In this document: positions 8,658 through 15,393 of the stretch, piece after piece
Layout of the letters: each line of letters starts with the position of its first letter
How positions within the stretch are numbered: position 1 is the stretch's first letter
Source of the DNA: a virus
Length of the DNA stretch: 37,036 nt
Direction: 5' to 3' (one strand)
IMG/VR virus record: IMGVR_UViG_3300022687_000001
Span: 1 to 37,036 of that record
Program-made: the position numbers and the translations under genes
Notes under the pieces: model-generated
What the model was told of the DNA's origin: nothing
The model's input: the letters and a program-made list of their open reading frames with translations, nothing else
Databases searched by the model: none

Positions 8658-8884
8658 CCTGGCGCACACTCCGACGCATCGCCCAACGCGAAGCCCAAGC
8701 ACTCCGACACTGGCACCCCAACCACTGGCACCACATCACCAACGACACCCGAGCACACCGGCTCCTCTGCGCCGCACACGGCCGCTACGTGCCCGTAGCA
8801 GACCACGACCTACCCGACCCGGCACGCGAACACCGCCGCGAGCTCGAACGGGCGGCGAAACGGCGAGCGAGGGGGGCGGCATGA
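8654..8884 (+). CDS. Hypothetical His/Arg-rich protein (76 aa)
   Basis: ATG 8654 overlaps the methyltransferase stop. The protein is strongly basic, with HWHPNHWHHI near residue 23, LLCAAHGRYVP in the middle and an Arg/Ala-rich helical C-terminus. It may bind nucleic acid. No family recognised. Confidence 0.5.
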   Translation: MTWRTLRRIAQREAQALRHWHPNHWHHITNDTRAHRLLCAAHGRYVPVADHDLPDPAREHRRELERAAKRRARGAA

Positions 8885-11055
8885 CTGATCTCGCCCACCA
8901 AGAACCCACCAACGCTCACGAACACGCACGCGCCTACGGCGCACTCGGACTACGAACCCTCCCCATCCGCGTCGGCGGCAAAGCACCACCCATGAAGTCG
9001 TGGCAACACGCCGCCACCAACGACCCCGCCAAAATCGACGCCTGGTACAAAGGCCTGTACCGCGACTGCGGCGTCGGAATCGCCCTCGGTGACCAACCAA
9101 ACGGCTGGCACCTGTTCGCCCTCGACCTCGACAACCACGGCGACGGCACCACCACGGGTGAAGACGAACTCGTCGACCTCGAGCAAACCCACGGCGCACT
9201 CCCCGACACCTGGCGCGCCATCACCGGCTCAGGCGGCGTCCACCTCATCTTCCGCACCCCCGAAGGTGTCACCGTCCGCAACCAGCAAGCAACCGGCAAC
9301 CGAGTCGCACCAAACATCGACGTCCGCGGCCAGGGCGGCCAGATCGTCGCCGCACCCACCATCCACCCCGAAACACTCAACGCCTACGCCTGGGAACACG
9401 ACTACGAACCCTGGTCACTCCAACCGGCGGTCGCACCCGACTGGTTGCTCGACATGGTCCGCGAACCCGACCCGACACCCGAACCACCCAAACCGGTCGT
9501 CAACCTCCCCCGAGACGACACCCTGTTCGAGCAACACCGCGCCGACTGGAACTGGCACGTCGAACTCGTCGCCCTGGGCTGGCAACAAGACCAACGAGAC
9601 CCCGAACGCTGGACCCGCCCCGGCAAAGACCCACGACAAGGACACTCAGCGATCCTCCACGGCGACGAAGGCCCGTTCGTCGTGTTCACCACCGAAATCC
9701 CACACGAATGGCGACACGCCGGCAAACAGACCACAGACGGCTCCGGCTGGTCGTTCGGCCCGTTCGGCTTCTACGCCGCCACACGCCACGCAGGCAACCG
9801 CTCAGCGGCCGCTCAGGCGCTCTCAGACCGATACGGCATCGAACCAGCATCACTCGACGACCTGATCGCCGAAACGGTGGGCGAAGAACCGACACCAGTA
9901 ATCCTTGATGAGCTCGACAAACACCTTCGGTCGATGGTCATGCCGTGGGACACCTTCTTCTCCATCGACCACAACGCCGCCTCATGGCTCTGGGAACCGA
10001 TCATCGCAGAAACACGCGGCACCGCCATCTTCGCCCCCGGCGGCGTCGGCAAATCACTCATCATGCTCCGACTGTCGATCGACATAGCCAAGTCCGGGCG
10101 ACGGGTGCTCTACCTGGACTACGAGATGACGTCAGACGACCTCGCCGACCGACTCGACGACATGGGATACGACGGCCCACACCCCGACCTCGACACCCTG
10201 TTCTACGCCCAACTCCCCGACCTGTCGGCATTCGACACCAAAGCCGGCGCACAAGAGGTCGTCCGAATGGCGGAACTATTCGACGCCGAACTCGTCGTCA
10301 TCGACACCTTCGCCCGAGCGATCGAAGGCGACGAGAACGAGGCCGACACCTATCGCCGCTTCTACAACCTCACCGGCCAGGAACTCAAACGCCGCGAAAT
10401 CGGCTACGCCCGCCTCGACCACGCCGGCAAGGACGTATCAAAAGGGCAGCGAGGTTCCAGCGCCAAGAACGACGACGTGGACGTCGTATGGCTCCTCAAA
10501 CGCACCGAGGACGGCTACCAACTCATCGCGAAGAAGAAGCGGATGGGGTGGGTGCCCGAGATCGTCAACCTGACCCGCGGTGACGACCCGTTCACACTCG
10601 AGGTGAAGGGCGGCCCGTCGTATCCGAAGGGGACCGCCGAGGTCTCCAAACTGCTCGACGAACTCGGCGTGGACGAGGACGCCACCCTGGCGACCGCCCA
10701 ACGGGCGCTCAAGGATGCCGGCCACGGCAAGCGTCGACAGGACGTGTCGGCAGCCCTCAAATACCGTCGCGACAGGTCACCGACGTACCACTTCGTGGAC
10801 GACCTTGTGGCTGTGGATAAGTCCGGGAACCGCGGCGGGAACCGCCCGAACGAAAAAGGGCCGGAACCGCCCCCGGAACCACCCAACGACGAATCTGTAT
10901 CACCCCAGGTAAATGACCACGGGAACCGTTGCGGGAACCGCCCGGAACCGTCTTCGCCGGTCTACCGGGAACCGGGTTCCCCCCTTAAGGGGGAACCGGT
11001 ACCGACCCCACCCGACGACGACCCACCGACAACCCTCGAGGAGCTTGGATTGTGA
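8881..11055 (+). CDS. Bifunctional primase-polymerase / RepA-type helicase
   Basis: 724 aa. The N-terminal prim-pol domain has LDLDNH with the catalytic Asp82/Asp84, SGGVHLIF (His121) and DVRGQGGQIVAAPT (147-160). The helicase/ATPase domain has Walker A APGGVGKS (385-392) and Walker B LVVID (471-475). LDHAGKDVSKGQRGSSAKND follows, as in RepA/DnaB-like hexameric ATPases. It would prime and unwind DNA at the phage origin, so replication is likely largely phage-directed. The C-terminal 80 residues are low-complexity (GNR, PEP and REPG segments) and are encoded by a repeat array that I describe separately as a candidate origin. Starts at an ATGA overlap. Confidence 0.85.
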   Translation: MTDLAHQEPTNAHEHARAYGALGLRTLPIRVGGKAPPMKSWQHAATNDPAKIDAWYKGLYRDCGVGIALGDQPNGWHLFALDLDNHGDGTTTGEDELVDLEQTHGALPDTWRAITGSGGVHLIFRTPEGVTVRNQQATGNRVAPNIDVRGQGGQIVAAPTIHPETLNAYAWEHDYEPWSLQPAVAPDWLLDMVREPDPTPEPPKPVVNLPRDDTLFEQHRADWNWHVELVALGWQQDQRDPERWTRPGKDPRQGHSAILHGDEGPFVVFTTEIPHEWRHAGKQTTDGSGWSFGPFGFYAATRHAGNRSAAAQALSDRYGIEPASLDDLIAETVGEEPTPVILDELDKHLRSMVMPWDTFFSIDHNAASWLWEPIIAETRGTAIFAPGGVGKSLIMLRLSIDIAKSGRRVLYLDYEMTSDDLADRLDDMGYDGPHPDLDTLFYAQLPDLSAFDTKAGAQEVVRMAELFDAELVVIDTFARAIEGDENEADTYRRFYNLTGQELKRREIGYARLDHAGKDVSKGQRGSSAKNDDVDVVWLLKRTEDGYQLIAKKKRMGWVPEIVNLTRGDDPFTLEVKGGPSYPKGTAEVSKLLDELGVDEDATLATAQRALKDAGHGKRRQDVSAALKYRRDRSPTYHFVDDLVAVDKSGNRGGNRPNEKGPEPPPEPPNDESVSPQVNDHGNRCGNRPEPSSPVYREPGSPLKGEPVPTPPDDDPPTTLEELGL
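10812..10998. other. Candidate replication origin: DnaA box plus GGAACC iteron array
   Basis: TGTGGATAA at 10812-10820 is a perfect consensus DnaA box (TTATCCACA on the other strand). Nine direct copies of GGAACC follow, starting at 10826, 10838, 10863, 10875, 10922, 10934, 10944, 10968 and 10992, most extended to GGGAACCG or CGGAACCG. One inverted copy (GGTTCC, 10975) forms a 9-bp hairpin with the last. Spacings are 12, 25, 12, 47, 12, 10, 24 and 24, close to multiples of 12. The array lies inside the 3' end of the primase-helicase gene, but four copies are in one codon phase and five in another. The conserved unit is therefore the DNA, not the peptide. An origin within the initiator gene is known in other phages. 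Confidence 0.55.
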
Positions 11056-11624
11056 CCATCACCGAACAACAACTCGACGCCGTCCTACCGCGCGTCCCCG
11101 CCGGCCTGCCGTGCGGAGGCCGCGACCTGACCGACGCCGACGAACGAGCCGAAACCATCGCCGAACTGCTCGACCTGTACCGACGTGCCGAGACCGAGGT
11201 GTGGGTGCGCTACACCGATTCGGTCGGTGACCTGGAAGCCTCAGAGTTCGACTGCATCAGATGCGACAAACGCGCCGTCGTGTGTGCGTGGACCGACGAC
11301 CAATGGGGCGGTGAGGCGTTCTGTGACGTCCACGACCCCCGTTCCGCGCCCGCACACGTCCACTGGGGCACCAATCAGGCGACCGTGGTGCCCGACCCCG
11401 AAATCGAACGCCTCCTCGACGAGGAGGAGTGGTACCGCCGGAACCGCCGGAACGGCTGGACCGACCGCCCGCCGCAGCCGGGGACGCACGAGAGTGACGT
11501 GCTGCCACCAGACCTCCAGTTCTGGAAGGCGGGGCTGACTGGAATCAATGCAAGCAACCAACCACGCGGTGGAGTCCAGGAGTTCAACTACGCCCGCGAC
11601 TGGTCCGTGGAGAACGCCCGATGA
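11052..11624 (+). CDS. Hypothetical protein with zinc-ribbon segment
   Basis: 190 aa from GTG 11052, overlapping the primase stop (GTGA). FDCIRCDKRAVVCAW and AFCDVHD (residues about 65-95) give four Cys and a His in a spacing suited to a zinc site. The N-terminus is helical and the C-terminus ends in polar sequence. Two further GGAAC units lie at 11440-11455 in this gene, again near the candidate origin. Function unknown. Confidence 0.6.
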   Translation: MTITEQQLDAVLPRVPAGLPCGGRDLTDADERAETIAELLDLYRRAETEVWVRYTDSVGDLEASEFDCIRCDKRAVVCAWTDDQWGGEAFCDVHDPRSAPAHVHWGTNQATVVPDPEIERLLDEEEWYRRNRRNGWTDRPPQPGTHESDVLPPDLQFWKAGLTGINASNQPRGGVQEFNYARDWSVENAR

Positions 11625-13405: not shown

Positions 13406-13878
13406 CCACACCCACCCTCACCGAAACCGTCGACATCCTCCAAAACATGGACCACGAATACGCACGCCTCGCCAAACTCACACTGTCCACCATGCAACAC
13501 CTCCTCGCCCAACAATACGACGCCGTATCACCCGGAGGATCAGGCGACGGCGTCAAAGTGTCAGGCGGCAACTACGACAACGCCGCCGTCATGCTCGCCA
13601 GAGCCGCAGCACTCGACCCCTACGCCTACCGAGGCCGCAAGATCACCGACGCACTCACCGGCGTCAACAAATCACTGCGGGAATGGCAACGAGCCATCGA
13701 CCAAGCATTGAGCGACACCACACCGAAACACGACGACCGGCCCCGATGCCCCGGCACCGTCGAGGACGGCGACGGCCGGCTCGGCGGCTGCGGGAACCTG
13801 ACAGAGCGCTACCACGAAGGCGGGAAGGTCAAGTACCGGCCGCTGTGCAAGAAATGCCGGACACAGGGCAGGCACTGA
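13402..13878 (+). CDS. Helical protein with C-terminal zinc ribbon
   Basis: 158 aa from ATG 13402 with GGAGG 7 bases upstream. The N-terminal 105 residues are helical (TETVDILQNMDHEYARLAKL and so on). The C-terminus has RCPGTVEDGDGRLGGCGNL and CKKCR, a four-Cys ribbon as in transcription-factor-like zinc ribbons. It ends in -TQGRH, shared with the next product. Function unknown; a nucleic-acid-binding regulator is possible. Confidence 0.55.
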   Translation: MTTPTLTETVDILQNMDHEYARLAKLTLSTMQHLLAQQYDAVSPGGSGDGVKVSGGNYDNAAVMLARAAALDPYAYRGRKITDALTGVNKSLREWQRAIDQALSDTTPKHDDRPRCPGTVEDGDGRLGGCGNLTERYHEGGKVKYRPLCKKCRTQGRH

Positions 13879-15253: not shown

Positions 15254-15393
15254 CCAGACAAGGTGCACGCCCGGACCCGGAAGGGGAGGGGCGGGGTCGC
15301 GACGTAAACCTGTGGATAACCCCGCGAGACCCCGAACCTCTCGCAGGTTGCGAGTGAGTCTGGGACTCTCGAAAAGTTCGGAGGTGAACCCCG
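15254..15393. other. Noncoding segment with DnaA box and two hairpins, candidate cos/pac or origin
   Basis: No gene on either strand. TGTGGATAA at 15311-15319 is a second perfect DnaA box. CTCGCA-GGT-TGCGAG (15340-15354) and GAGTC-TGG-GACTC (15356-15368) are two adjacent perfect hairpins with 3-base loops. The segment lies between the HNH and small-terminase genes, the commonest place for a cos or pac site, and close to the point where strand composition switches. Which of these functions it serves cannot be told from sequence alone. Confidence 0.45.

Follow-up and report, generated by a model that had tools for sequence, protein, structure and literature searches.

Iterons that bind an initiator from within the coding sequence of that same initiator are known from the O genes of lambda and Stx phages, in which they are protein-specific (PMC7466680). 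Lambda O is a separate initiator, neither a primase nor a helicase. In pRN1, a single protein, ORF904, contains a Prim-pol domain, an SF3 helicase and a small C-terminal winged-helix domain that binds DNA; it depends on a stem-loop of ~100 nt, located at the origin just past the 3' end of the gene and kept despite sequence variation (PMC4234260). The alpha protein of satellite phage P4, compared in the same paper, also unites primase, helicase and C-terminal iteron binding, with a primase of the Toprim type (PMC4234260). P4 alpha has an SF3 helicase, and its origin sites lie apart from the gene. The oriV of the IncU plasmid RA3 has been mapped to the 3' end of repB, its initiator gene, and is activated by transcription (PMC9455977). 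Iteron plasmids (Rep_3 and related) carry a direct-repeat array with a DnaA box alongside.

We analyzed a stretch of viral DNA of 37,036 nt (IMG/VR record IMGVR_UViG_3300022687_000001, positions 1 to 37,036; hereafter, the window), in which an array of GGAACC iterons lies in the 3' end of a primase-helicase gene. The features are listed below in positions of the window.

8881–11055, plus strand: primase-helicase gene, 724 aa, with the array in its 3' end (Pfam: Prim-Pol E 3e-33, AAA_25 E 4e-19)
8926–9444, plus strand: Prim-Pol domain (PF09250), residues 16–188 (Pfam)
9973–10368, plus strand: AAA_25 (PF13481) RecA-type helicase core, residues 365–496 (Pfam and AF2)
10633–10776, plus strand: three-helix C-terminal domain, residues 585–632, proposed iteron reader (AF2; co-variation)
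10812–10820, minus strand: perfect DnaA box TTATCCACA, read as TGTGGATAA on the plus strand (sequence; enriched near homologue arrays)
10826–10880, plus strand: left iteron cluster, GGAACC at 10826, 10838, 10863 and 10875
10906–10914, plus strand: core element CAGGTAAAT separating the two clusters, with the CAGGT core at 10906
10922–10973, plus strand: right iteron cluster, GGAACC at 10922, 10934, 10944 and 10968
10975–10997, no strand assigned: terminal GC-rich hairpin GGTTCCCCC-CTTAA-GGGGGAACC, composed of the inverted unit plus the final direct unit (10992)

The locus resembles the lambda and Stx-phage O genes in having putative initiator-binding iterons within the coding sequence of the initiator; however, the lambda iterons are situated mid-gene beside an AT-rich tract, whereas the array described here is found at the 3' end of the gene or behind it and is accompanied by a hairpin. 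With pRN1 it shares the fusion of Prim-Pol, helicase and small C-terminal domain, as well as the position in or past the 3' end of the gene, and the conserved pRN1 stem-loop can be likened to the hairpin. Unlike pRN1, which lacks iterons, the window combines a helicase of the AAA_25/RecA type with spaced iterons and a hairpin of 23 nt. For its C-terminal domain, three confident helices are predicted. The joining of primase, helicase and C-terminal iteron binding (the last proposed here) recalls P4 alpha, whose primase is of a different type. RA3 is similar in the position of the origin and differs in being a plasmid system activated by transcription; homology between its initiator and the window protein was not compared. 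Direct repeats with an adjacent DnaA box are a feature that the window shares with iteron plasmids. Pfam found only Prim-Pol and AAA_25 in the array gene, with neither a phage replication O domain nor a Rep_3-type initiator domain as in iteron plasmids, and no match to the DUF3631 of RepAM (AICE pMEA300, PMC3218068) up to E 0.1. By analogy, the arrangement would work in the manner of the origins in pRN1 and the lambda O gene; as the protein-domain criteria of both families fail, it is assigned to neither.

The AF2 model of the AAA_25 region matches KaiC/DnaB/RadA folds. In the model of the whole protein, confident helices 585–594, 603–612 and 619–632 stand immediately before the tail, which is repetitive (GNR, EP), and identical helices are obtained when the C-terminal domain is modelled by itself. 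A Foldseek search revealed no significant PDB match to this domain; given this and the three predicted helices, we call it merely HTH-like, without claiming a winged-helix identity.

GGAACC is the 6-mer of highest density in the window; it occurs nine times on the plus strand of the array and once on the minus strand (10975–10980). The direct units follow one another at 12, 25, 12, 47, 12, 10, 24 and 24 nt; four of them are read as Gly-Asn-Arg (codon phase 1) and five as Glu-Pro (phase 2). The whole array (10826–10997) is inside the coding sequence, and so is the terminal hairpin, after which 58 nt remain to be translated. There is no second GGAACC array elsewhere in the 37,036 nt. No AT-rich unwinding element is obvious in 10800–11060, although a dedicated scan was not performed. 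A preliminary description of the locus had reported the DnaA box, nine direct units and one inverted unit, and the two codon phases; these held to the base, as did the coordinates, while the terminal hairpin and the CAGGT core were absent from it and are added here.

The repeats could be a by-product of selection for a low-complexity protein tail rich in Pro, Gly and Asn, which the repetitive tail of the window would suit. When the tail peptide was resampled with synonymous codons according to the phage's own codon usage, the mean was 1.24 units and the maximum in 20,000 trials was 6, compared to 10 observed; permutation of the synonymous codons of the tail itself never gave 10 units. In first-order Markov genomes, any 7-mer reached at most 4–5 copies per 250 bp, and the array here has 8.

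Single-sequence searches of viral and genome collections found no relatives. A tblastn match was obtained with gp21 of Streptomyces phage mu1/6 (DQ372923), 36% identical across the helicase core; this helicase served as a bridge to relatives, and the joint alignment was then used as a query. In total, 117 loci were taken from viral and bacterial contigs (some are one place fetched twice) and matched with a profile of the AAA_25 core and the C-terminal domain, and 80 non-redundant homologues were scored. In 67 of the 80, the locus as a whole has its strongest 7-mer cluster between −60 and +600 nt from the end of the conserved domain, with ties in 10 more; random anchors in place of the domain end gave a mean of 5.5 and a maximum of 15. 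The window has the family arrangement of an AAA_25 core and three-helix domain followed within ~70 nt by array and hairpin. The mu1/6 gp21 tail has a matching architecture at its 3' end, with ten copies of the unit CCTGCCC and a hairpin centred on CTAAAG (CTTAA in the window); unlike the window protein, gp21 has a DnaB-type N-terminal domain in place of Prim-Pol, and there is no DnaA box near its array. Across the homologues, the units include GGAACC, GGGGACCA, CGGGACA, CGGACCAC, CGGAACG, GGGAACA, GGAAACG, GGACAGG, GGGCAGG, GGGTCACC and GGGGGGAG. Thus, the feature extends well past this phage, to dozens of related phages that have a common layout and changed repeat letters. We found no published description of arrays of mu1/6-like helicases, but most subscription journals were not covered, and a report on the mu1/6 origin may exist.

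At least one homologue missed by this scoring, L039, has an array of nine copies of ACGGATCG slightly farther downstream (L039:5978–6114), ~520 nt 3' of its stop codon, so in some members the array may be more distant.

In 13 scored homologues (L027, L030, L031, L037, L080, L082, L085, L087, L093, L094, L096, L099 and L117), the array is wholly 3' of the stop codon, and in six others (L032, L033, L034, L036, L092 and L097) it straddles it. Since the gene ends before the array in the 13, where the repeats are fully noncoding, the array acts as DNA. Mapped on the tree of helicase cores, the noncoding state requires ten changes, at least six of which are forced by firm branches; it should be noted that this is a quick tree with many weak branches. 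In the coding arrays of the homologues, units occupy two or three codon phases, and nearly all of these arrays could not be reproduced in synonymous simulations; in many homologues, units are in both orientations. The array is independent of the reading frame and even of coding status.

The layout itself is conserved family-wide. From the right cluster to the hairpin, the start-to-start spacing is 12-10-24-24 in the window (GGAACC), L022 (CGGGACA) and L028 (CGGACCA), 12-10-24-23 in L021 (GGGACCA), 12-10-23-24 in L092 (GGGACAG), 12-10-24 in L029 (CGGAACG) and 10-23-24 in the noncoding L027, with some outermost units counted with one mismatch. The in-register nucleotide identity between compared array pairs is only 32–56%. 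The noncoding arrays of L027 and L091 (units GGAACCG and GGAAACG, respectively; proteins 56% identical) have common unit positions 50, 61, 109 (minus strand), 117, 127, 150 and 174. The hairpin recurs in register in homologues with other units. The core CAGGTCA[AG] is present in most homologues and is 48-fold enriched in arrays; the form CAGGT[CA][AG] occurs 23 times in codon frame 0, 22 times in frame 1, twice in frame 2 and 13 times in noncoding arrays. In homologous arrays, the conserved core, typically ACCGCAGGTCARAC, separates the iteron clusters and lies roughly 86 to 125 nt past the domain end.

The tail peptides, by comparison, are not conserved among homologues, whereas the spacing is. 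Together with the synonymous simulations, which fall far short of the observed units, and the units in differing codon phases, this speaks against the protein-tail explanation; the 13 noncoding arrays refute it in practice, and we consider it all but excluded. Selection on the DNA is shown by the synonymous-codon tests, the two or three codon phases of coding arrays and the arrays wholly 3' of the stop codon. The preliminary description had inferred such selection, and this held. It had also proposed a search for the array in homologous genes, which revealed the array layout, and had stated that its reading would fail if homologues kept the peptide repeats and lost the unit. This does not occur: the peptides are not kept, and the unit changes coherently within each phage while the spacing is maintained.

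Another explanation places the function of array and hairpin in RNA, where they would serve the replication transcript as terminator or regulatory element. The stable hairpin at the array end, on the transcribed strand, is in favor of it. However, no T run follows the hairpin and it was not called as a terminator; it is in the coding frame, with translation still to continue; and many homologues have units in both orientations. This explanation seems very unlikely.

The iteron unit co-varies with the C-terminal domain. With helicase-core identity removed, the partial correlation between unit similarity and domain identity in 76 homologues is 0.25, a value that none of 2000 permutations reached. 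Among pairs with 70–85% core identity, the domain is 65% identical if the unit is the same and 46% if it is different. Of all columns in the aligned region, the two that best predict the unit correspond to residues 603 and 609 of the window protein, which belong to the middle helix. Arginine at 603 accompanies units of the GGACA/GGCAG type in 13 of 18 homologues, versus 4 of 58 for the others (Fisher 1e-7, not corrected for the tree); in independent tree pairs, residue 603 and unit type agree in 6.2 of 8 and are opposed in 0.2, with a median p of only 0.03. The three-helix domain is therefore the likely reader of the iterons, as inferred from this co-variation without binding data. The earlier statement that the encoded protein could bind the array is supported to this extent, while binding itself has not been shown.

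L081 shares ~89% identity in the helicase core with relatives whose unit is GGAAACG or GGAACG, but its C-terminal domain and unit resemble those of L005 (GGGGGGAG). This combination suggests that reader and repeat are exchangeable as a pair.

L081 and L083 can both be noted for cores 85–90% identical to relatives, yet with a C-terminal domain and an iteron unit of another type. Possibly, reader and repeats were swapped jointly.

Short repeat arrays are known as partition (centromere-like) or packaging sites in other elements. Against such a role here, the array accompanies the gene of the replication helicase whether the contig is viral or bacterial, and it co-varies with the C-terminal domain of this very protein. 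We regard this role as very unlikely, though partition genes were not specifically sought.

In our opinion, 10812–10997 is very probably the replication origin of this phage, to which its own primase-helicase would bind; experimental data on binding or replication, and read-depth profiles, are not available. The preliminary description had proposed an origin within the phage's own replication gene. DNA-level selection, layout and co-variation support this strongly, and replication from the site is inferred. GC skew is of no help: in the window, the cumulative curve reaches its minimum at 13,758, ~3 kb 3' of the array and close to where early genes give way to late ones, so that the array site is not marked, and the mu1/6 skew lends no support either. 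The array could instead be a control site bound by the initiator (copy number, incompatibility, autoregulation), a role that iteron arrays can have outside origins, with initiation elsewhere; the likely initiator protein could be titrated by it, and the distance of the skew minimum fits this. However, the window has no other GGAACC array, the array accompanies the helicase gene in 67 of the 80 homologues, and core, hairpin and DnaA box suit an origin more than a titration site. Such a control site is unlikely.

According to the origin reading, the three-helix domain would bind the GGAACC iterons, placed at fixed spacing in two clusters flanking a short core. The resulting rigid complex would open the DNA at the core or the hairpin, or close by, and load the AAA_25 hexamer, after which the Prim-Pol domain would prime; all of these steps are inferred. 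The tail peptide would be chiefly a linker, translated from DNA kept for binding. Host DnaA may assist via the flanking box in this phage.

Two perfect boxes TTATCCACA were found in the window versus 0.07 expected. Array regions contain six versus 0.3 expected, a 20-fold excess: one each in the window, L021, L080 and L094 and two in L028. Most homologous arrays have no box. Since boxes are present in few array regions and are displaced in the L022–L026 group, help by DnaA is plausible here and is not a family rule. The proposal of host DnaA as a helper thus held in part: it remains a possibility, by inference, for this phage and four other homologues.

The second perfect box of the window (15311–15319) has no repeat array nearby. 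In the L022–L026 group, boxes lie 1.1–1.3 kb downstream of the helicase gene, with none beside the array; L023 has five perfect boxes in ~170 bp, about 1400–1580 nt past the domain end, and clusters were also found in L022, L024 and L026.

A bolder reading, to which we incline without firm commitment, is that these are widespread phage and prophage replication modules in which the origin is a retargetable cassette behind the last domain of the helicase. Repeat and reader helix would change together, by drift or joint swap, while the nearly base-exact spacing, the core and the hairpin stay; the cassette may be coding, stop-straddling or noncoding, or may link the helicase to a fused DNA polymerase. 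If this is true, one could predict from sequence where replication starts in many uncultured phages and prophages of actinobacteria. Dozens of initiators, each matched with its iteron and differing in specificity, would provide natural data for a DNA-recognition code and a resource for mutually compatible replicons. The arrays would also be a clear case of a DNA-binding function shaping coding sequence, with the noncoding arrays as natural controls.

In L086 (IMGVR_UViG_3300036853_000124; L086:2343–6614), one frame of 1423 aa comprises Prim-Pol, AAA_25, the C-terminal domain and a family A DNA polymerase. A GCTGTCC iteron array and a CTATAG-centred hairpin are located in the linker between helicase and polymerase; given their position, this protein, a nearly complete replisome, would have its origin in its own linker.
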